Part shown: piece after piece, positions 875 to 54,037 of the stretch
Layout of the letters: each line of letters begins with the position of its first letter
Position numbering within the stretch: the first letter of the stretch is position 1
Assembly (NCBI RefSeq): GCF_026210795.1
Contig: NC_089448.1
Location: forward strand, 2,170,001 to 2,234,000
Reading direction: 5' to 3'
Origin: Rhizophagus irregularis
Lineage: Eukaryota > Glomeromycota > Glomeromycetes > Glomerales > Glomeraceae
DNA: 64,000 bases
Program-made: the position numbers and the translations under genes
Notes under the pieces: generated by a model
Databases searched by the model: none
Told to the model about the DNA's origin: nothing
The model's input: only the letters and a program-made list of their open reading frames with translations

Positions 875-3800
875 TTAAATGAATATAACATACTTTGTAA
901 AATCAATCATTACTGAATTATTATCACACTTTAAAAGATCTTTTGTATAAGGATTAAGTAAACGAGATGTATAATATGCTTCTGGATGAGTAGTTAACTG
1001 AATATTTTCAGTAGATGAAGGATTTGCCCTTATATATTCTTCTGATTCATCAAATTGCTTTCTAATTTCCTTATCTCCGTTATATACATTATATGAATTA
1101 TTATAAGAATTACAAAAAAGTTGAATCAACTCTTCCACTTTAACAGCATCTGGTCTATTCTTAGGATTTGGATCCCAACACTTTTTCATTAAGTCATTAT
1201 AACATTTTGGTATTTCTGACTCATTTATTTCGGGTCTAATTCCATTACATATACTTGATGCTAGATATTGATCATGTGCATAATTGGCAAAAGGTTGTCT
1301 TTTGGTTGCCACAAAATACATGACCATACCAAAACTATATATGTCTGCCGCTTGAGTATAAGTATTTCCTCTTAATACTTCGGGAGCTACATAGGGCATA
1401 ACTCCATAAATTTTTGTTTTATCTACATTACAAACTTCTCCACATGATCCCATATCTGAAATATATACAGTACAAGTACCACTACATAATATATTTCCTA
1501 TATGAAAATCACGATGAACCATCTGATTTTCATGAATTTTTTTAAGTCCATTAATAATTCCAATTAATAGTTCCAATTTATCTGGCCAATGATAAATCTT
1601 ATTAATGTACTCATTTAAGTTTCCTTCATTTGCATATTCAAGAACTAATATATAATTTCCTGTCTCTGGATTTTGAGATATCCCATATATTGGAAGAATA
1701 TGATTATTATTATTAAAGCATTCTTCAATTGAATATGATTTAGCCTATTAATATTGTAAAAAGGAAATTATTTATACATTAAAAAAGATGATAAAAGATT
1801 ATGAATAAATTTTATACCTCATTTAAAAATTCATTAGTAATATTTTGTGAGTCGTATAAACATTTTAAAGCGACTGTTAAACGATTTGGATTTTTGTATC
1901 TTTTATATTCCTTTTCAGAAGCATTATAATGCAATATATCATCTTTCCATTTTGCTGAATATACTGTGGCAAACCCACCTGTTCCTATTTCCTTAATATT
2001 ATCAAACTGGTTGTAAGGTATCCATTCAACTATTATATTATTAATACCATTAATCTTTAATTGCATTTCTTGAATGAAATTATCAATCTTTTCATTTTCA
2101 CTGGTCCAGTTTACAAAATTTTCTTTTAAATTATTTATTTGACATGGTTTACACCACTTCTTTTTTATATCTGTATATATTTCACCACATTTTTCACAAT
2201 ATCCATCTTGAAGCACTAAAATATAATCATTTGTACTTGGATTTTGAGATATGCCATATATTGAAGGAAGATTATCAGAATTTTTAATTGAATATGATTT
2301 AGCCTATTAATAAAAAAATATTAATACTACATTAATAAAAAGCATTTAAATTATGAAAATCATATACCTCACTTAAAATTTCATTTGTAATATTTTGTGA
2401 ATTATATATGCATTTTAAAATAACTCTTTCATTATTCGTTCTTATATATCCTTTTATAAATATAGCATCATCAAATTCCAATGGACCATCCTTCCATATT
2501 GCTAAATGTAATGTTCCAAACCTATCTTTTCTTATTTCTTTAATATATTCAAACTGATGGTATGGCACCCATTCAACTACTGTATCATTATAATTATCAA
2601 TTTGTAAATGCATTTCTTGAGTATAATTATCAATTTTCTCATTTCCACTGGTCCAATTTTCAAAAAATTCTCTTAAATAATTTATTTGACATAATTTACA
2701 CCATTCATATTCTGGATTTGTATACTGGTTACCACAATTTTGACAAAATATATTTACAGAAACTATAATATAATCATTTGTATCTGGATTTTGAGATATT
2801 CCACATTTATTAGAATATGATTTAACCTGTTAAGGGTAAGAAATATTTTTTACTATATTAAAATATTGAATTAAATTTACATAAAAATTTTATACCTTAT
2901 TTAAAAATTCATCAATATTATTTTGTGAATTATATAAATGTTTTAAAGAAACTTCAACATTGTCCTTCCATGTGGCTAAATGTAATGTTCCGAATTCATC
3001 TTTGTTTATTTGCTTAATATCATTAAACTGATTATATGGTATCCATTCGAATATTGTTCCACCAAACCAACCCATTTTTAATTGCATTTCTTGATGAATA
3101 AAATTATCAATTTTCTCATTTCCACTAGTCCAGTTCACAAAATTTTCTTTTAAATCATTTATTTGACATAATTTACATAACTTATTTTTCGGTTCACTAT
3201 ATGATATATATAGTATTTTACCACATCTTTCACAATATACTTCTTGAAGTACCATAATATAATCATTTGTATTTGGATTTTGAGATATACCATATATTTT
3301 AATATTATATTTATTAAAATAATATGATTTAACCTTATTAAATATAAAAAAAATTATTATTACATTAAACATATATACAAGAATTATATAAAAATTAGCA
3401 TACCTCATTCAAGAATTCATCAATAATATTTTGAGAGTTATATATACATTTTAAAATAACCTTCTTATTATTAATTCTTATATATAAATTTTTATATTTA
3501 TCATATCTTAATTGGCCATCTTTCCATAATGCTAAATGTAACATTTCAAACCCATTATTTTCAATTTTATTAACCTCATCAAATTGATCATATGGTATCC
3601 ATTCAAGTACTATATCATAACAACGATCAATTTTTGATTGCATTTCTTGAATAAAATTATCAATTTTCTCATTCCCACTTTTTATACAAACTTTTTTCAA
3701 TTCATTCATTTGACATGGTTTACACCATTTATGATATATTTGTGTATATTGATTACCACATTCTTTACAATATTCATCTCCTAAAATCATGATATAATCT

Positions 3801-5437
3801 TTTGTATTTGGATCTTGAGATATTCCATATATTTTAAGAGTATCACCAGAAAATTTTTTAATTGAATATGAATTGATCTATTAGTCAAATATAGTAAGAA
3901 AATCATTATTATATTTAAAAAAATTATTTAAAAAGAAACTTCATACCTCATTAATATTCTGTAAATATTTTAAAGTAACTTTCTTATAATTATTGTATGA
4001 TTTCCGCTTATATGTCTCTTTATTGTCTTTATAATATAATGGACCATCCTTCCATATTGCTAAATAAATTGTAACAAAACCATCTTTTCTTATTTCTTCA
4101 ATATGATCAAATTGATTAAACGGTATCCATTCAAATATTATATCATCACATTCATCAATCTTTAATTGCATTTTTTGAACAATATCATCTATTTCTTCAT
4201 TTCCACTTTTTATACAAATTTTGTTCAATTCATTTATTGAACATTGTTTACACCACTTACGTTTCATAAAACTCACATACTTATATATAGAATATTTATC
4301 ACCACATTTTTTACAACATGCATCTTTAATAACAATAATATAATCCTTTGTATTTGGATTTTGAGATATTCCATATATTTTAAAAATATCTCCATATTTA
4401 TTGAAGGAATCAGTAGGAATAATAGAGCATAATTTAACCTATTAAAATAAACAAATTTATTAGTCTAAAGAATTTAAATTGAATTTAAACAAAGATTCAT
4501 ACCTCATTTGAAAATTCATCAATGATATTTTGTGAGTTGGATAAAATTTTTAAAGCTACCTTTATATTATTAATTCTTATATATTCCTTTTTATAATGAT
4601 CATATTCTAATGGACCATCCTTCCATACTGCTAAATGTACTGTAACAAAATCACTTTTATCTATTTCTTTAATGATATCAAACTGATTATATGGTATCCA
4701 TTCAAATATTATATCATTATAACAATTAATTTTTAATTGTATTTTTTGAATAAAATTATCAATTTTTTCATTTTCACTATTTTCACTAATCCAGTTTCCT
4801 AAATTTTCTTTTAAATTAGTTATTTGACATGGTTTACACCACTTCTTTTTTATATCTGTATATATTTCACCGCACTTTTCACAATATCCATCTTGAAAAA
4901 CCATGATATAATCTTTTGTTTCTATATTTTGGGATATTCCATATATATAAGGAATATCAATACCATATCTTTTAATTGAAGATGACTTAACCTATTAAAT
5001 ATAGTAAGAAAATCATTATTATACTAAAAAAAAAAGTATTTAAAAAAGAAATTTCATACCTCATTTAAAAATTCATTGGTAATATTTTGTGAATTATACA
5101 AATATTTTAAAATAACTTTTTTATTTGGACATGTTTTTTTATATATCTGTTCATATTCATCATAATATAATGGACCATCTTTCCATATTGCTAAATTTAC
5201 TGTAGCTTTACCTATTTCTTTAATAATTTCAAGCTGATCATATGGTATCCATTCAAATACTGTACTATAATAATTAATTTTTAATTGCATTTCTTGAACA
5301 AGATTGTCGATTTTTTCATTTTCGCTAGTCCAGTTTCTAAAATTTTCTTTCAAATTATTTATTTGACATGGACCACACCATTCATGTTGACATTCCTTGT
5401 CACATTTTTTACACAGACTTATATTTACATCATACAT
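875..5437 (-). CDS. TKL-type protein kinase gene with seven tandem zinc-ribbon/N-lobe modules and one C-lobe
   Basis: I predict eight exons (minus): 5437-5060, 4991-4503, 4438-3947, 3877-3404, 3333-2896, 2826-2368, 2303-1818 and 1744-875. Introns are 64-73 nt with GTAT donors and AG acceptors. Every intron is phase 0 and every coding exon is a multiple of three, giving about 1361 residues. Exon 1 starts at an ATG and carries a CxxC..CxxC zinc ribbon, an 'NWTS.NEKIDN' linker, 'EWIPYDQ', and an N-lobe start with its beta-3 Lys. Exons 2-7 each run from alpha-C ('KSYS..IYGISQNP.T.DYI') straight into a new zinc ribbon and a new N-lobe start. Only exon 7 keeps a good glycine loop (IGTGGF). Exon 8 supplies the catalytic lobe: HRDFHIGN (D about 1151), DMG in place of DFG (D about 1169), and APE (about 1194). 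The family resembles the expanded Glomeromycotina TKL-like kinases. One long transcript, or alternative use of exons 2-7, are both possible. Confidence 0.8.
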
Positions 5438-6035: not shown

Positions 6036-8324
6036 TAAGTCAATTTTATTCTTTTTTTTTTTTTTTTAAATAGTAACGCGCTTTATTAATTATTTAAATT
6101 TGATACAAATTACATAATTAATCATTAAAACACTTAGAGCTTATCGAAGTTATCTTCTCAAAACCCTATAACTAAGTATTTTAAAAAAAAAACAAAATTT
6201 CTAAACTAAACTATTCTAAATTGTATCTAATCTAAAAAATTACATATTCTAACTGTTGTATCCCATGTATTTTTAATACTATTTCGATCCTGTTAATTTT
6301 TCTAACGTTACTAAACTAATTTTTTTATTAAATCTTTTTTATTTAATTTTTCTATATTTTCTTCTGTTTTTATTTTTTTAATTTTTTCCGTCCCGTCTTC
6401 TAATTTTTCATTTAATCTTTCCCTTTTTTTCCTAAGATCTAATTTTTGTATATTCACTTTATCTTCTAGTCTTTTTATTTCTTCACATCGTGGTATCCAT
6501 ATTCTCTTCTTTATTTCGTCATAAGTAAAATTCCAAAGCTTTTTTATTAAGACTTTCTCCTCCTTCTTGTTTGTTAAGCTATTAAACTTCTCATTGTATA
6601 CTCCTCTAACCCAAATCTTGCTTTTACCTCTCAAAATAATCAACTTTCTAGAATTCTTATAAATTTTATAAATTCAAAATTATAATTCCTCAAAATTTCT
6701 ACTTCCTCATTTTGATTAAGATCTTTCAAAGTTTTTTCAAAACGATAAATTGATTCTGTACAATTTTGTTAATCGTGAATTCGTTATCTTCACACAACCA
6801 TATACAGTATGTTCCCAATCTTCCTTTGCTTCTTTTCCACATCTTTTACACCAATCATTTTCCATTTTGTTAGTATTTCTTTTATATAAGACGTTGTAAG
6901 TAGGTTGTTCTTTCAATAAGTTCTTTATACGATAAGATCTTTCTTTCGTGTCCTTATCGTTACATTGCCTTTGTGAAAAATTGATCCTATTACTAACAAA
7001 TTCTAAGGTAGATTTCCAATCGAATTCTTGTTTAAAATTGTACATGAATAAATCGTTTAACTTTTCACTGTTGAGGATTTCATTTTTCCATATCGCGTTC
7101 GTTATTTTTTTCCGCCAGCCTCTATATCCTCCTGCAATTATTCTGTTGTTCTAAATTAAGTTATATTCATTTGTAATCAGAGCTTCATCAATTAACTCAA
7201 CCCCATATTTAATCGCCTTCACTAATTCTTTATCTTTTAACATTTCTCTCACTTTTTTCTTTAAATTCGTCAATATTTTATATTCTTTTTCATCGCTATC
7301 CACTATTTGAATCCCATTCTTTTCCAAAAATTGATCTATAAACAATAATTCTAGGTAAAATTCGTTGTCTATCTTTCGTCTGTTACTTAGATTGTTAATG
7401 AATTCAAATAATAATTTTTTAATATTTTCATTTACACCTAAAATTATTTCACTATTTATATTACAGAAAATTAATAATCCGATTATGATACTTCTTAATA
7501 TAATTTGAATTCATTTTCGTTAGTACATTCATATTTTGCTAAAAACATTATCTCTTTATTGAGATCTTCCTCACTTCCTAAATCTTTTATTATCCATATA
7601 ATATTATAATTATATGTTCTCTTCCCCTTGTCGTTAACTATAGATTTAGTCTTAACTATATCTATTGCTAGATAAAATCTTCTCTTTTCTCCATAAGTGT
7701 TATCACTATTTTCGAATATACTATTTTTAATTAAAGTAATGAATTCTTCTTCAGTTTTTATCAGATTATCAATTATTTCTATCCTTTCATTATATATAAT
7801 ATCTCTTCTATCCTCTTGCGTATATTTCTTAACCAAGTATTTTTTTAATAATATTATTTAAAGTCTCATATGGTTTAATTAAATTTTCTTCTTTTCGTCT
7901 TTCAATTTTCCTACTGAATTCACCTTCTAAGTAAATTAAACATTCGTTCGTTCCTTTTTTCTTGCTAATATTTTTACTACATCCTTCGCATTTTTTCAAA
8001 AAAGGTGAATTGTTTATATCTATTTCCTCTCCTTCTATCACTAAATGTATTCTTATTCTTTTGTGATTCTTACTTTGTGATCTTTTTTTACGCTAAAAAT
8101 TGGAAAGTTATTAACATCATTCCAAGTAATTATACTATTTTTCTCTTGTCTTTCGTTTTCATCAAAATAATTAACGTGTATTTTACTTTTTTCTACTTGT
8201 CCTATATTTTCTTTTTTTATCTTTCTTACGCTTCCACTTTGGTCTTCTAATACTTCTTTTCAATATCTTTAAACCAAATTGGTATTTTTCCTTTCGTATT
8301 CATACCTTTAAGTCAATTTTATTC
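6036..8324 (-). mobile_element. 5'-truncated non-LTR (LINE-type) retrotransposon with poly(A) and 16-bp target duplication
   Basis: The body (6052-8308) ends on the minus strand in an A tract (T run at about 6052-6067). It is bracketed by a perfect 16-bp direct repeat, TAAGTCAATTTTATTC, at 6036-6051 and 8309-8324, the hallmark of target-primed reverse transcription. The minus-strand frames are fragmented: about 8300-8050 ('KGKIPIWFKDIE', then 'NYFDENERQ'), 8041-7829, 7836-7495, 7345-7151, 7045-6737 and 6643-6311. The 7045-6737 piece has a CxxCG..EDWEH..xxC zinc motif of the kind found at the C-terminus of Glomeromycotina LINE proteins, preceded by 'LLKEQPTYNVLYKR'. The last piece is a basic coiled-coil tail. 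No reverse transcriptase core is present, so only the 3' part was copied. Stops and frameshifts make it non-functional. Confidence 0.8.
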
Positions 8325-15478: not shown

Positions 15479-18391
15479 ATGAAGAAAGCTACTTTCTTTA
15501 AATTTATTGCATTGTTATGTTCACTGTTAATAACTATTCTTATTGCAAAAGTTATTGTAATTGATGAATCTGACGTTGGAACAGGTATAAAATTAATTGC
15601 TGAATATTGTTCTTTTGAAACTTATAAGTTCTAATATTATATCGTCAGTTATCGGTATAGATTTAGGAACAACTTATTCTTGTGTTGGAGTATACGTGAA
15701 CGGAAGAGTTGAGATATTGACCAATGATCAGGGTAACCGTATCACGCCTTCTTATGTTGCCTTCACCGATGATGAACGTTTAATTGGCGATGCGGCAAAG
15801 AATCAATATTCAAATAACTCTAAGAACACCATTTTTGGTTTTAAGCGACTAATTGGTCGTCGCTTTAGCGATAAAGAGGTTCAACAAGATATTAAGCAGT
15901 TTCCATTCAAGGTCATTGACAAAGATGGTAAACCTGTTATTCAAATCACTGTAAAAAGCGAAGAAAGAATATTTACTCCTGAAGAAATTTCGGCTATGAT
16001 TCTTGGTAAAATGAAAGAAATTGCAAAATCGTATTTAGGCAAGAAAGTTACACATGCAGTAGTTACAGTCCCAGCTTACTTTAATGACGCTCAAAGACAA
16101 GCCACAAAATATGCTGGCGTAATTGCTGGACTTAATGTCCTTCGTATTGTAAATGAACCTACGGAGGCTGCAATTGCATATGATCTTTATAAATCCGATG
16201 GGGAACGTCAGATTCTTGTCTATGATCTTGGTGGTGGTACCTTTGATGTTTCTCTCTTGTCAATCGATGATGGTGTTTTTGAAGTATTGGCAACTGCCGG
16301 CGATACACATTTGGGAGGTGAAGACTTCGACAACCGAGTTATTGACTACTTCGTTAAACTTTATAAAAAGAAAAATAAGGTAGACGTTTCACAAGATTTA
16401 AAAGCTATGGATAAATTAAAACGTGAAGTTGAAAAAGCCAAGCGTACATTATCTTCTCAAATGTCAACTCATATCGAAATTGAATCATTTCATGATGGTA
16501 AATATTTTTCCGAAATTTTGACCCGTGCCAAATTTGAAGAACTTAACAATGATCTCTTCCTTAAAACATTAAAGTTCGTTGAACAAGTGTTGAAAGATGC
16601 AAATGTTGATAAGAAGGATGTGCACGATATTGTACTCGTTGGTGGTTTCACACGTATTCCCAAAGTTCAACAACTCCTTGAAGAATTCTTTAGTGGTAAG
16701 AAAACTTTCAAAGATATTAATCCTGATGAAGCAGTTGCATATGGTGCCGCCATACAAGGAGGTATTCTTTCCGGAGATATACGGATATACCAATGATATT
16801 CAATTTATTAGACATTTGTCTTCTTACACTCGGTATTGAAACAACTGGTGGCGTTATGACAAAATTAATTCCTCGTGACACTGTAATTCCTACTAAGAAG
16901 TCACAAATTTTCTCTACCGCCGCGGATAACCAACCTACTGTATTAATTCAAGTTTACGAAGAAGAACGTTTTATGACTAAAGACAACAACTTACTCGGCA
17001 AGTTCGAAAACTTCGAATTAACAGGTATACTGCCTGCACCACGAGGTACAGTCGCGTCCGAAAGTGACGCCCGATTTGAAAATGAAGACAAAAGCAAAAA
17101 TATCTGTATTTTTTCACTAGTGTATACATTAGTAAAATATTCATACCTAGTTTGTTTCTCATACTAAATCAAATTTTCATAATGCCAGGGTGGCAACCTT
17201 CTCAAAAACAGAACTATTTAAATTTTTATTTTTTCTTTAATATAGCTTTAAATTCGCCTACAGCTCTTGGGAGAGGGACACACTTCTGGATAATATATTG
17301 GTTCATTTTTAAATGTTCTCTACTTGGTTTAAACCAAATAAATTTGTTGGAAAATTAGTAGTTGCAATTTTATTTAATTTTAGCTTATTTTTGGCCTAAA
17401 GATAAAGGATATAATCATCTGGAAACCTGTGATTATCTTGGCATCCAGTGATCAGAATTCGATGAACAAAGGCTCATTGGATTCGTCTCGTCAAGATGAG
17501 TTGAATGGTGAATGTCTCATATCTCTAGGGTTAATAGATACTAAGGTGTACCTTAAAACATTTTTTTGATGGTTTGGCCTTTATCCTGAGATATAATGAT
17601 GCTACATGTATGAACTGGCCACCATTCGACGTGTATCAATGAGACAAATCCAATGAGTCTTTGTTTGTCAGAATAGAATCACTGGATAGTGAGATATTCC
17701 CAATTTCGTGAAATTTAGAGTTTCGAAAAATTTTCAGGTAAAGAATGTTTTAAGTTATATCTTGGCATCTATTGATCCTAGAGATATAGGCCAACCACCA
17801 TTCACTTCGTCTTGACGAGATGAATCCAATGAGCCTTTGTTTGTCGAATTCTGATCACTGGATGCCGAGATGATCATAGTGACTTAATAATTATGGCCTT
17901 CATCTGTAAGTAATCGGGCAACACTTTCGGACGCGACTGTATACCGCAAATCGAGGTTACGTTTGAAATTGATCCCGATAGTATAATAAAAGTATATGCA
18001 AAAGATATAGGTACAGGAAAATTGAATCGATTACAATTACAAACTATAAAGGTCGTCTTTCTCAAGAAGAAATTGATCGTATGGTTGAAGAAGCCGAACA
18101 ATATGCTGAAGAGGATAATATTCAAAAGGAACGAATAGAAGCTAAAAATCAACTTGAAAGTTTTGCATACACAATCAAAAATCAAACTTCTGATGACGGA
18201 AAACTTGAACTTGATAAGAAAATAAGCAATGACGATTGGTTGAATGATCATTCAAATTCTGCGATCAAGGATGATTTTGATGAAAAACGGGAAGAATTAC
18301 AATCTATCATTAATCCGATAACTACTAAATTGTATGCTGATAGTCACGTTCCACCTCCACACGAGGAACCACCAAGGCATGAAGATTTGTA
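15479..18391 (+). pseudogene. KAR2: Endoplasmic reticulum Hsp70 (BiP/Kar2) gene, broken by frameshifts and a transposon
   Basis: Exon 1 (15479-15584) encodes an ER signal peptide (MKKATFFKFIALLCSLLITI..). A 64-nt intron follows, and exon 2 starts at 15649 with [20 protein letters not shown]. The nucleotide-binding domain is complete: [58 protein letters not shown]. Near 16785-16800 the frame is lost where the interdomain linker should be, so the first frame ends at 16796 after about 417 residues. The next frame resumes at [20 protein letters not shown]. At 17049-17939 a mobile element interrupts the substrate-binding domain. After it the reading resumes at PQIEVTFEID, with one more frameshift near 18022, then SQEEIDRMVEEAEQYAEED and a C-terminus ending HEDL at 18389. 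BiP normally ends HDEL or KDEL. At most an NBD-only protein could be made. Confidence 0.9.
17047..17941. mobile_element. Non-autonomous Tc1/mariner-like element inserted in the BiP coding exon
   Basis: The 891-bp element (17049-17939) begins CAGTCGCGTCCGAAAGTG and ends with its complement. Terminal inverted repeats are about 27 bp with two mismatches (..GTGACGCCCGAT versus ..GTGTTGCCCGAT). It is flanked by TA on both sides (17047-17048 and 17940-17941), a TA target duplication. Removing element and one TA restores the codons for R-G-I-P-Q-I-E-V, which proves the insertion site. Internally a second inverted repeat of about 95 bp (about 17431-17530 against 17778-17876) and a third partial copy (about 17641-17700) suggest a nested or foldback structure. 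No transposase frame is present. Confidence 0.85.
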
Positions 18392-22336: not shown

Positions 22337-23999
22337 TACACTCCCGGCCAAAAAGTTTAGGACCACCCGGTAAATAATAGAAAAAATGGAATTTTTTAAC
22401 GATAACTTTTTTTATTAAACTATAAAGATCATATACGTTTTCTCTACTAATTAATTAACAAATTTAATAATATTTAAATTCATTATAATAATAAATTATT
22501 GAAATTTAATATGTAACATTTTTATACCCCTTTTTTTAATAAAATAAACTAAAACTATTAATAAATAAAAAAAATTTTTTTATAATAATATATTATATGT
22601 AAATTATATTTATTAAACATCATATTAAACATAATATAATGTAAAAAACCCAGCTCAAAATCTCGCAATATTAAATACTTTTAATAATATTAAAGTTTTT
22701 AATAAAAAATCGGTATTTTTCTTTAAAAAAAATTAAATTAACTCATTAATTTATAATACTTACCCTTATAAAAATTTAATAAAAACGTCAATTAATATCT
22801 TGTGGGATAACCACGAGCTTTTATTACCTCTTCAATTCGACGTACCATGCTCTCAACAAGCTTCTGATAAACTTCACATGGAATTTCTGACCAGCACTCT
22901 TGAAGAAGCGCCTCCAATTCCCCTAAATTTTTTGGATGTTTTTGCTTGGCTCGAATACGACGTTCAAGCTCGTCCCAAAGGTGTTCGATGGGGTTAAGGT
23001 CAGGGCTTTGCCCTGGCCATGGTAACAAAATTATTTCCGTTTCTTCAATAAAATTCCGCGTTCTTGCACTTGTATGAATTGGTGCGTTATCTTGTTGAAA
23101 AAAATATTCACCATTTTCCTCTTCAAATTCCTCTAAAAACGGTACCACGTGATAGCCAAGGATGTCTTCAATATATCTTTCACTATTAATACGGCCATCT
23201 ATTCTTACCAATGGACCTAAACCATACCAGGAGAAGCACCCCCACATCATAATACCTCCTCCGCCATGCTTCATGGTAGGAACAAGGCAGTTAATATTAT
23301 ATTTTTCTTCTTGAAGACGCCAAACTCGTATTTTTCCATCATTTTGAAATAATGTAAACCTGGATTCATCGCTCCATACTACCTTTTTCCAATCATTTAT
23401 AGTCCATAAACGTCTTTCACGAGCCCACTTTAAACGAATTTTTCGGTTACGCTCACTGACATTGGGTTTTCTGAGAGCAGTACAACTATGATATCCCATA
23501 TTATATAATGTATTTTTCATAGTATTCTTACATATTACTTTTCCAGTGGATTCGGCAAAATTTTTTACTATTTTCTCTACTGGTTCACGTCGGTTTTGAG
23601 TAACAATAACTTTAAGATGACGTTTATCCCGTTCAGTTAATTTTTTTGGACGTCCACTTCGAGAAGCAATACTAAAAGCACCTGTTTTTTTATATTTTGA
23701 TATAATATTATGAATTGTGGTTTTACCATAACCAGTTTTTTCTGAAATTGTTCGTTCTGAGTCACCAGCTTCATAAAAACCGATAACTCTTCCGCGTTCG
23801 AAATCCGAAAGTTCTCTTGTTTTGACCATTTTGCAAAAAATAAAAATAAAAGAACGAAAAAAAAGATATGCATGACGTTCACTATTTATTGATTATCATA
23901 GGGTACAAATTTTAGGTTACACAAATATGTTATTGTTTATTTATTGCAGATCATTTGCAGATCATAGGGGTGGTCCTAAACTTTTTGGCCGGGAGTGTA
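22337..23999 (-). mobile_element. Complete Tc1/mariner transposon with TA target duplication
   Basis: The element spans 22339-23997 (1659 bp). It is bounded by perfect inverted repeats of about 30 bp, starting CACTCCCGGCCAAAAAGTTT, and by TA dinucleotides at 22337-22338 and 23998-23999. It contains one intact transposase gene on the minus strand and about 450 bp of AT-rich sequence on the transposase 3' side. Intact ends plus an intact gene suggest recent insertion. Confidence 0.92.
22792..23829 (-). CDS. Tc1/mariner-family transposase
   Basis: A single uninterrupted 345-residue frame, the usual length for Tc1 transposases. Residues 1-60 form a helix-turn-helix ('DFERGRVIGFYEAG', 'KTTIHNIISKYKKTG'). 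A GRPKKLT hinge and a second DNA-binding region follow. The DDE domain has D154 (WSDESRF), D247 (FQQDNAPIH) and E282 (DLNPIEHLWDELE), giving DD34E spacing typical of Tc1. The protein would bind the terminal repeats in the nucleus and catalyse cut-and-paste transposition into TA. No stop, frameshift or missing catalytic residue is seen, so it may be functional. Confidence 0.95.
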   Translation of the reverse strand: MVKTRELSDFERGRVIGFYEAGDSERTISEKTGYGKTTIHNIISKYKKTGAFSIASRSGRPKKLTERDKRHLKVIVTQNRREPVEKIVKNFAESTGKVICKNTMKNTLYNMGYHSCTALRKPNVSERNRKIRLKWARERRLWTINDWKKVVWSDESRFTLFQNDGKIRVWRLQEEKYNINCLVPTMKHGGGGIMMWGCFSWYGLGPLVRIDGRINSERYIEDILGYHVVPFLEEFEEENGEYFFQQDNAPIHTSARTRNFIEETEIILLPWPGQSPDLNPIEHLWDELERRIRAKQKHPKNLGELEALLQECWSEIPCEVYQKLVESMVRRIEEVIKARGYPTRY

Positions 24000-27413: not shown

Positions 27414-29090
27414 TCAAACAGCATTACCACTAGTATTATCATATCTCTGAACTTTAAATACTTTGAAAGTTCTCAAATTTTCGCGTGATTTACTAATATT
27501 CATATACTTCAAGAATTTAGAAGGATTTGTTTCTTTTGTTATTTTAGTAGAATTTAAATTATGAACCGTTTTTCCAGGCCTGATTTCAACATAATGTCTT
27601 TTGAAAAAATCTAGCCAGATTAAAACATCCTCAATAGTGGTCATTGCACCTATTGATACACGGGCTGCACCATATAATTTCCCTTTGTATATATCTTTAT
27701 CATCACTACATTTTCTCTCTTCACTATCCTGTATAACTTCCTCAGCAGTAATATTATTCCATCTTGAAATACTACCAGGATTACAATTACCACCAGATCT
27801 AATATGAATACCATAAGTATTTGCTAATTTTTCCAATTCAACATATCCTACAAAACTACCATCTGAACGTTTTACGTTAAAACTTAATATACCACCTTGC
27901 TTTTCACTATCTGAAAAATCCCTATCCGAATTTATCGTACAAACACTTTTTCCATTCCAATGATGTAATGATCTCATATTTCTACTGAGGTATGTATTTA
28001 AGCTAGTCACATGATTTGATACATTTTTAATGTTTCCATAAATCCTTTCAAACGCATCAAATGCATGATCTAATGCTATAATATTTAAGAAATTAATGGT
28101 CCCGTCTTCGTATCGTGTTGCAATATCTTCAGAGAATACTTGCCATGTTTTATCATAAACAACTGAATTAGTAGTACCACCACCAAAATATCCTTTTCTT
28201 AATATAGGATTTAATTCTGATTTTATTATTAAGGCTCCTAATCCAGTAGGAAATCCGAACATTTTATAAAAACTAAGGCAAATAAAATCTGGTGAAGTTT
28301 CTTTATCAGCTAAAGAAAGTTGTGCAGATGGAACGTAAGCAGCCGCATCTAATAAAACTAAATTTTTTGACTTTTTTGTATCCAATTTCTTGATTTTACT
28401 AATCCAATCTAAAGGAAATCTCATTCCAGAGAAGTTACATTGAGCTGGATAAGCGAAAAGATTATAAGTAATTTCATCATCTTCAGATTCATCATTAACT
28501 GGTGGATTATTTATCATTTCTTCTACATCATTTTCAGTTACACCTTGAATATTTTTCGGGTTGATTGTTTCAAGAAATCTTCTTAATCCATTAATACTAT
28601 TATGAGATTCTCTTAAATATTTATAGGTACTCTTTCCCGTCCAAGGAAACATCTCACCGGTTAGTTTAATAGCAGCCGTAGCATTTTGAGTGAAGATAAC
28701 ACTATAATCATTTTCATCAGCATTAAAATATTTAAGGATTCGTCTACGTACACCTTCTACTCGCATAGAACTCGCCTGAGAACTAGCAGAATTTGAATGA
28801 GGATTTCCGTAAAGATTACTTAATAGATCATTATTAAAATTTGTTAACGCACTTTTAGTGAATGTTGTAGTGCCTGTATGATCAAGATAAATTGCGTTTC
28901 TTAATTGTGGATATTCTTCTTCACGTATTTGATCTATTTTACCATTATACCCATATTTCGTCGAAAATTCCTTTAAAAATTCACGTTTTTCTGTGCGTAA
29001 CTTTTCTTTATTTGTTTTTGGTTTATATTTTTGTGAATTAAAAGGACCAAAAGTATACTTCTTTTCAGTTAATAAGTTTAACGTCTTCAT
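27414..29090 (-). CDS. MOCOS-like PLP enzyme (aminotransferase class V), no MOSC domain
   Basis: Single-exon gene of 558 residues starting at the ATG at 29090. It matches the N-terminal NifS-like half of molybdenum cofactor sulfurase: 'IYLDHTGTTTF' (about 67-77), 'NPHSNSASS' (about 96-104), 'LVLLDAAAYVP' with the PLP-pairing Asp (D248), 'CLSFYKMFGFPTGLG' with the PLP Lys (K276), and 'RSGGNCNPGS' with the candidate persulfide Cys (C436). In MOCOS this domain takes sulfur from L-cysteine for the xanthine dehydrogenase/aldehyde oxidase cofactor. Canonical fungal and animal MOCOS are about 800-900 residues because of a C-terminal MOSC domain. Here the protein stops after a basic tail, with no MOSC visible upstream or downstream. 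The persulfide loop is RSGGNC rather than RTGCFC. It may be a stand-alone paralogue with changed substrate. Confidence 0.85.
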   Translation of the reverse strand: MKTLNLLTEKKYTFGPFNSQKYKPKTNKEKLRTEKREFLKEFSTKYGYNGKIDQIREEEYPQLRNAIYLDHTGTTTFTKSALTNFNNDLLSNLYGNPHSNSASSQASSMRVEGVRRRILKYFNADENDYSVIFTQNATAAIKLTGEMFPWTGKSTYKYLRESHNSINGLRRFLETINPKNIQGVTENDVEEMINNPPVNDESEDDEITYNLFAYPAQCNFSGMRFPLDWISKIKKLDTKKSKNLVLLDAAAYVPSAQLSLADKETSPDFICLSFYKMFGFPTGLGALIIKSELNPILRKGYFGGGTTNSVVYDKTWQVFSEDIATRYEDGTINFLNIIALDHAFDAFERIYGNIKNVSNHVTSLNTYLSRNMRSLHHWNGKSVCTINSDRDFSDSEKQGGILSFNVKRSDGSFVGYVELEKLANTYGIHIRSGGNCNPGSISRWNNITAEEVIQDSEERKCSDDKDIYKGKLYGAARVSIGAMTTIEDVLIWLDFFKRHYVEIRPGKTVHNLNSTKITKETNPSKFLKYMNISKSRENLRTFKVFKVQRYDNTSGNAV

Positions 29091-53268: not shown

Positions 53269-54037
53269 TTAGTAGCCATACGCTTCTGGTTCCGCATCAC
53301 GTTTATAGCCATATGCTTCTGGTTCCGCGTCACGTTTATAGCCATATGCTTCTGGTTCCGCGTCACGTTTATAGCCATATGCTTCTGGTTCCGCTTCACG
53401 TTTGTAGCCATAGGCTTCACGTTTATAGCCATATGCTTCTGGTTCTGCGTCACGTTTATAGCCATATGCTTCTGGTTCTGCGTCACGTTTATAGCCATAG
53501 ACTGGTTCTGCGTCACGTTTGTAGCCATATGCTTCTGGTTCTGCGTCACGTTTATAGCCATAGACTGGTTCTGCGTCACGTTTATAGCCATAGACTGGTT
53601 CTGCGTCACGTTTATAGCCATAGACTGGTTCTGCGTCACGTTTATAGCCATAGACTGGTTCTGCGTCACGTTTATAGCCATATGCTTCTGGTTCTGCGTC
53701 ACGTTTGTAGCCATATGCTTCTGGTTCTGCGTCACGTTTGTAGCCATAGACTGGTTCTGCGTCACGTTTATAGCCATAGACTGGTTCTGCGTCACGTTTA
53801 TAGCCATAGGCTTCTGGTTCTGCGTCACGTTTATAGCCATACGCTTCTGCTTCCGCGTCACGTTTATAGCCATACGCTTCTGGTGCTGCGTCTGCGTCAA
53901 TGATGAATTAAAATATTATTAGAAGAATTCATTTGACTAATTTCACTTGATAAAAAAAGAAAAAATTTTTTAATAATTTATTTACTAGCTAAAGCCATAT
54001 TAAAGCCGAAAATCAACAATAAGTGTTTTAATTGCAT
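53269..54037 (-). CDS. Large secreted precursor with 20 Kex2-separated YGY peptide units
   Basis: Exon 1 (54037-53986) encodes MQLKHLLLIFGFNMALA. A 94-nt intron (GTAAAT..GACGCAG) follows, and exon 2 (53891-53269) brings the total to 224 residues. Exon 2 is almost entirely repeats: DAEPEAYGYKR (33 bp, with variants DAEAEA, EAEPEA, DADAAPEA and a short EAYGYKR) and DAEPVYGYKR (30 bp, seven copies). There are 20 YGY units, 19 followed by Lys-Arg. The last ends YGY then TAA, created by a one-base insertion before a decayed final unit. Kex2 would cut after each KR. Ste13-like trimming of DA-EP-EA would leave YGY, or VYGY-type products. Tyr-containing short cores between KR sites also recall fungal ustiloxin-type (dikaritin) RiPP precursors, but no UstYa-like gene is nearby. 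The longest ATG-initiated frames on both strands here are shadows. The true frame has no internal ATG. Confidence 0.85.

Follow-up and report, generated by a model that had tools for sequence, protein, structure and literature searches.

How a kinase gene that carries one exon cassette seven times is read, as a single long protein or as a choice between interchangeable parts, is the question raised by a locus of Rhizophagus irregularis. The DNA analysed, called the window below, is a stretch of 64,000 nucleotides (nt) of contig NC_089448.1 (assembly GCF_026210795.1, positions 2,170,001 to 2,234,000), and the kinase gene lies on its minus strand at 875-5437. It has 8 exons and 7 introns, and the spliced product of 1361 residues consists of seven modules, each with a zinc ribbon and a kinase N-lobe, and of one C-lobe. 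The first-pass annotation, made from the sequence alone, had left two outcomes side by side: this repeat protein, or a combinatorial or mutually exclusive exon array that yields kinases differing in their N-lobes. The position of the glycine loop, the occurrence of fused exons and the substitution rates all support the former. It is likely that one messenger RNA is formed by constitutive splicing and is translated into a protein with six units of zinc ribbon, linker and pseudo-N-lobe, and, C-terminal to these, a single complete zinc-ribbon kinase of the tyrosine kinase-like (TKL) type, encoded by exons 7 and 8.

Structure of the kinase gene

The gene was read exon by exon, and its earlier description was borne out. 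None of the 8 exons contains an internal stop; all 7 introns are in phase 0, start with GTAT and end with AG, and the retention of any one of them brings a stop. Their lengths, from intron 1 to intron 7, are 68, 64, 69, 70, 69, 64 and 73 nt (range 64-73). Exons 2-7 begin with the beta4-beta5-hinge segment of a kinase, continue directly with a further zinc ribbon and the start of an N-lobe, and have their 3' end at a common alpha-C codon, as had been stated. The motif at the cassette end is NEFLNE, with the variants FSNE, NINE, FLNK and ILSE, and the final codon is Glu except in exon 5, where it is Lys. Both CxxC knuckles of the zinc ribbon and the beta-3 Lys are present in 7/7 cassettes of the window, and the full glycine loop (IGTGGFATVY) was found in cassette 7 only, which also agrees with the earlier account. 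The repetition within the gene is far beyond chance: direct-repeat families reach 7 copies in register (references up to 300 nt), and the similarity among the introns exceeds that in 200 shuffles.

A Pfam scan of the spliced protein gave a single kinase domain (PK_Tyr_Ser-Thr, residues 1013-1276, expectation value (E) 3.7e-42), built from exons 7 and 8. These two exons hold the glycine loop, the beta-3 Lys, the HRD Asp, the DxG Asp and the APE motif, that is, a full kinase of the PF07714 type. Cassettes 1-6 combined with exon 8 yield no complete kinase domain of this type, the full glycine loop being missing in each, and exons 1-7 scanned singly gave no C-lobe match. The closest solved structures to exon 8 are RIPK1 and TAK1; judged from PF07714 and these nearest solved kinases, the head may be assigned to the TKL type, and the terminal kinase is predicted to be active. 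The zinc ribbons are predicted to bind zinc. Zn_ribbon_NOB1 matched exon 7 with E 0.0016 and 18.9 bits and the whole protein with 20.1 bits, both below the cut-off of 24.9, and a profile search of the PDB returned the eL37 zinc ribbons alone, at a non-significant E of 0.06 or worse. An AlphaFold2 model of exon 7, computed from 20 alignment rows, was poor (predicted local distance difference test (pLDDT) 61.8) and was set aside. As a separate observation, the Pfam family BCS1_N spans the exon 6/7 junction (protein residues 887-928, E 2.4e-10, above the cut-off) and is absent from the single-exon scans.

A family of cassette arrays

The genome (146,748,485 bases, 32 contigs) was searched with exon 7, for which the best 150 places of 5188 candidates were taken, the window copies among them, and with the segment of exon 4 that covers hinge, ribbon and linker, which gave at least 150 places. 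The places from both queries were merged, and same-strand cassettes less than 1.8 kilobases (kb) apart were grouped. At least 222 cassettes at at least 105 places on 22 contigs were obtained, and at least 58 of these places have two or more cassettes. The best match of exon 7 outside the window has an E of 4.5e-99; 148 of its 150 best matches are free of internal stops, in lists that favour intact copies. No relatives outside the source genome could be confirmed in viral contigs or in genome contigs, where records near the source genome may be left out.

In nine arrays all cassettes were read; they number 7 (the window), 7, at least 9, 6, 7, 7, 13, 7 and 4, in total 67. Among 121 introns following complete cassettes (median 71 nt) the GT stands at the same codon in 119 and a GC in one, and in a lenient test an in-frame AG was found near the expected position in 118. 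The closest paralogue of the window array, L031 (G000:C20:2136500-2145499), lies about 30 kb away, and its cassette 7 is 94% identical to that of the window. These two arrays, and likewise L034 and L037, match largely position by position; whole arrays are thus copied as well. In L036 (G000:C3:5526500-5535499; 13 cassettes) each of cassettes 7-9 has 96.6-99.6% identity with its nearest neighbour, and recent multiplication of cassettes is visible there.

The glycine loop is confined to the last cassette

A cassette was called last when the next exon is catalytic and non-last when it is another cassette. By this definition 198 distinct cassettes or pieces comprised 30 last and 157 non-last ones, and 11 that could not be classed were dropped. 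The full loop, GxGG(F/Y), was found in 28/30 last and 1/157 non-last cassettes. The sole non-last exception stood at the clipped end of L050, where the next exon, VLGYASGGSLYYQL, is catalytic, and it was reclassed as last. After this correction the counts are 29/31 for the last and 0/156 for the non-last cassettes, 154 of the latter extending as far as the loop columns; L020 and L051, which supply the two exceptions among the last cassettes, each deviate at a single residue. The alanine of VAxK is split in the same way as the loop (30/30 against 31/154). The beta-3 Lys (30/30 last, 141/154 non-last), the two core tryptophans (30/30 and 29/30; 152/154 and 151/155) and the four zinc-ribbon cysteines (30, 30, 30 and 29 of 30; 128/128, 128/128, 135/137 and 138/141) do not follow the split.

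A loop-bearing cassette had served as query for the first 30 loci, a possible source of bias, and the cassettes found with the loop-free query were therefore counted apart. Among the 59 that were new (8 of them unclassed) the loop occurred in 3/4 last and 1/47 non-last cassettes, or 4/5 and 0/46 as corrected. At the later loci L063-L066, inspected by eye, 3/3 last cassettes were intact (GKGGFAKVY, GEGGFAKVY, GKGGFAKVY) and 0/7 non-last ones. In a tree of 158 cassettes, built from few columns, the last cassettes tend to cluster, with 12 label changes against 28.4 under shuffled labels, a pattern compatible with a single origin as well as with several.

The suggestion that any internal exon could be skipped or joined directly to exon 8 thus stands in part: the skipping of an internal exon would leave the frame intact, but since no non-last cassette has the loop, an upstream exon joined straight to exon 8 would give a kinase without the ATP-binding loop (ATP, adenosine triphosphate).

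Splicing of the array

At two loci neighbouring cassettes share an exon. In L063 (C5:3321300-3323300) a non-last (GKDEFFTIY) and a last cassette (GKGGFAKVY) lie in one frame of 330 codons, with a few codons at the intron site, and in L066 (C25:2482700-2484700) two non-last cassettes lie in one frame of 334 codons. Neighbouring cassettes therefore form one polypeptide there without splicing, which is difficult to square with an exclusive choice of cassettes. The phase-0 symmetry of the introns is expected in any case when an exon is duplicated in tandem along with its intron. Constitutive splicing of the array would be in keeping with these exon structures.

The alternative that survives best is that splicing skips exons 2-6 to a varying extent but always keeps exons 7 and 8, so that one kinase head would carry a varying number of zinc-ribbon modules. 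Every internal skip would stay in frame in an all-phase-0 gene, the loop rule raises no objection to it as exon 7 is always retained, and a stop found in cassette 4 of L031 would do no damage in transcripts that lack this exon. No pairing device was found, however: in energy, the duplexes that introns 1-6 would form with intron 7 are at most a fraction of a standard deviation stronger than those of shuffled sequences. Between the window and L031 the introns differ by 0.056, and the synonymous divergence (dS) is 0.03-0.09 by exon; the introns of this pair diverge like synonymous sites. In L063 and L066, moreover, the joint inclusion of two cassettes is fixed by the lack of an intron. Variable skipping is considered unlikely.

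Selection on the cassettes

The first-pass annotation had named the ratio of nonsynonymous to synonymous rates (dN/dS, w) per cassette as a check on the array. As a neutral yardstick, substitution rates were derived from 45 adjacent-intron pairs (187 differences in 2160 sites), and 46 non-last and 12 last cassette pairs were compared, the remaining 4 of 62 being unused. The two classes are under equal constraint, with an overall dN/dS of 0.58 in the non-last and 0.59 in the last pairs. The cysteine codons are almost invariant (0.01 non-last, with one change in 46 pairs; 0.00 last). Corresponding values are 0.50 and 0.53 for the N-lobe minus the glycine loop, 0.61 and 0.60 for the linker, 0.59 and 0.80 for the beta4-beta5 head and 0.90 [0.76-1.07] and 0.98 for the zinc-ribbon loops. 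The glycine-loop segment has 0.61 [0.51-0.71] in the non-last and 0.32 [0.23-0.39] in the last cassettes. At its five key positions, on the Nei-Gojobori scale, 138 nonsynonymous changes were counted against 99 expected in non-last pairs, and 1 against 14 expected in last pairs. The constraint that is released in the upstream cassettes appears to be that of ATP binding.

Positive selection in the zinc-ribbon loops had been considered, as the Nei-Gojobori ratio at the non-cysteine positions was 1.21 in all pairs and 1.86 in young pairs. This claim was dropped, the intron-derived spectrum with pairwise alignments giving 0.90 [0.76-1.07] for the loops and 1.22 [0.87-1.67] for young pairs.

These rates bear on the possibility that tandem gene duplication left the upstream cassettes behind as decaying relics, fused remnants that are transcribed but functionless. 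The lost glycine loops, the interruption of 3/67 cassettes in the nine arrays and an uncorrected Nei-Gojobori dN/dS of 0.83 in the non-last pairs overall would fit such decay. The higher Nei-Gojobori values are attributed to the AT-rich spectrum, however; with the intron-derived spectrum the ratio of the non-last cassettes is as low as that of the last ones, which indicates that the upstream cassettes are kept as protein modules. Their nearly unchanged cysteine codons, the rarity of internal stops among the best matches, in lists favouring intact copies, and the splice donors kept in 119/121 introns likewise speak against decay, which is regarded as improbable. As for the combinatorial or mutually exclusive array, in which any cassette would be joined to the catalytic exon, it is suggested by the homologous, symmetric phase-0 exons with their common end codon and by the in-frame AG of most sampled introns under the lenient test, but it can hardly be sustained, since the cassettes are not functionally interchangeable in view of their glycine loops, the loop segment of the non-last ones is under weaker constraint and fused double-cassette exons exist.

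Several observations weigh against a constitutively spliced array with an active terminal kinase. Cassette 4 of L031 has an internal stop, so that constitutive splicing would give a truncated protein there; the other two interrupted cassettes are in L032 and L035. The loop segment of the non-last cassettes still has a w well below 1. The sampled genes and cassettes are paralogues, and the counts given above are not independent trials. Fold matches are weak, and Foldseek yielded no match at E <= 0.001. In addition, HxD is replaced by HHN in 2/28 readable catalytic exons (L027, L036), so some heads are perhaps inactive, and in L006 and L027 the catalytic exon is divided between two open frames. 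The 28 readable motifs come from 32 catalytic-exon rows, and the Asp is kept in 26 of them (23 HRD, 3 HHD); most heads, but not all, look active. The kinase head of L036 may itself be dead, although its last cassette has the glycine loop.

Proposed origin and role

A chimeric exon that was then multiplied would be the most economical origin of the array. An internal exon may be a hybrid of two gene copies, its beta4-beta5-hinge head coming from the catalytic exon of one copy and the remainder from the zinc-ribbon/N-lobe exon of the next; unequal crossing over, with the phase-0 introns as its sites, could then have produced further copies of this exon together with its intron. Because of the exon layout, in which the alpha-C end is followed by beta4-beta5 of the next exon, each module would be able to complete a whole N-lobe (beta1-beta3 and alpha-C from one exon, beta4-beta5 from the next) without a C-lobe. 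In the upstream N-lobes the glycine loop is gone, as is the VAxK alanine in most of them, but the fold core and the cysteines are kept, which suggests binding or scaffolding units; they would probably present or regulate the single ATP-competent terminal kinase.

We tentatively propose that repeats of N-lobe-only kinase units with zinc ribbons could represent a new architecture, a multivalent recognition or scaffold array that precedes a single active kinase. Unequal crossing over at the level of exons would extend, contract and diversify such an array and might give this arbuscular mycorrhizal fungus a fast-changing family of sensor kinases. With dead N-lobes upstream and one live N-lobe at the catalytic exon in about thirty arrays, kinase N-lobes would be reusable as repeat modules without a C-lobe, and the positional rule yields directly testable predictions on what the extra modules bind. 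Gene models in which the arrays are split into separate kinases, or in which every N-lobe counts as one kinase, would be wrong.

Table 1. Exons and introns of the kinase gene, in coordinates of the window.
Feature	Position	Strand	Description
Exon 1, front cassette	5060..5437	-	start codon, zinc ribbon CKKC..WCGPC, linker, pseudo-N-lobe from beta1 to alpha-C; loop reduced to IGKATV; donor GAG/GTATGA (exon/intron)
Exon 2, internal cassette	4503..4991	-	beta4-beta5-hinge, zinc ribbon CEKC..WCKPC, linker, pseudo-N-lobe (IDKSDFVTV); AlphaFold2 pLDDT 81.7
Exon 3, internal cassette	3947..4438	-	beta4-beta5-hinge start YGISQNPNTKDYIIVI; zinc ribbon CKKC..WCKQC, pseudo-N-lobe (IRKDGFVTI)
Exon 4, internal cassette	3404..3877	-	zinc ribbon CKEC..WCKPC, pseudo-N-lobe (IENNGFEML)
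Exon 5, internal cassette	2896..3333	-	zinc ribbon CERC..LCKLC, pseudo-N-lobe (INKDEFGTL), beta2-beta3 shortened
Exon 6, internal cassette	2368..2826	-	zinc ribbon CQNC..WCKLC, pseudo-N-lobe (IRKDRFGTL)
Exon 7, last cassette	1818..2303	-	zinc ribbon CEKC..WCKPC, intact N-lobe (IGTGGFATVY, VALK)
Exon 8, catalytic exon	875..1744	-	beta4-beta5, hinge, C-lobe with HRDFH, DMG and APE, tail; Pkinase E 1.9e-31
Seven introns, phase 0	4992-5059, 4439-4502, 3878-3946, 3334-3403, 2827-2895, 2304-2367, 1745-1817	-	GTAT...AG

Other features of the window

Beside the kinase gene a frame without Pfam match lies on the minus strand at 6737-7150 (WCKRCGKEAKEDWEH), which resembles the end of a reverse transcriptase of the LINE (long interspersed nuclear element) type. 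An HSP70 gene was found on the plus strand (15597-16796), and on the minus strand a Tc1-type transposase frame (22792-23817; HTH_Tnp_Tc3_2, DDE_3) and an aminotransferase class V gene (27414-29087), possibly related to molybdenum cofactor sulfurases. At 53269-54037, also on the minus strand, a signal-peptide-like exon (MQLKHLLLIFGFNMALA) is followed by an intron and then by many copies of YGYKR spaced by DAEPEA or DAEPV; we assume that the product resembles a secreted, kexin-processed repeat peptide or a pheromone-like precursor.

Comparison with known systems

The expansion of kinases is among the most striking features of the R. irregularis gene set, and to our knowledge the role of most of them is largely open. 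In the portions of the publications available to us, PF07714 kinases are given as the commonest motif among the expanded genes (PMC6123716), expanded families are occasionally found in tandem arrays of duplicate genes (PMC8647823), and 2,533 kinase genes are counted in the DAOM197198 assembly (PMC10234402); Nanopore and Illumina RNA reads have also been published for DAOM197198, according to the last of these sources. The domain type is shared with the gene described here, whose last cassette and catalytic exon form one such kinase; one-gene arrays of zinc-ribbon/N-lobe exons, or pseudo-N-lobes, are not mentioned in these portions. A literature search, to which subscription papers were mostly closed, returned no description of N-lobe/zinc-ribbon exon arrays within one gene. 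The kinase expansion itself is thus already known, and within the accessible literature no earlier account of the one-gene array architecture was found.

In the JAK kinases an active kinase domain is joined to an inactive kinase-derived unit. The same covalent arrangement is described, in the part of the source available, for the plant tandem kinase-pseudokinases such as Yr15 (PMC6170490). In contrast to both, the inactive units here are N-lobes only, lack a C-lobe, have a zinc ribbon each and number up to 12 per protein (L036). A whole two-lobed inactive unit, which defines a tandem kinase-pseudokinase, was not found, the spliced protein having one kinase domain.

Fungal recognition proteins resembling NOD-like receptors have repeat arrays of variable copy number with recent local amplification. 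Variable copy number and recent amplification (cassettes 7-9 of L036) are shared by the arrays described here, but their repeats are kinase-derived and no positive selection has been demonstrated in them.

Genes of the Dscam type carry tandemly duplicated, mutually exclusive exons. As far as the accessible part of the source goes, such exons are homologous and symmetric and arise by tandem exon duplication (PMC9013439), as do the cassettes of the present gene. The cassettes differ from them in not being functionally equivalent, and at two loci a single exon holds two of them.
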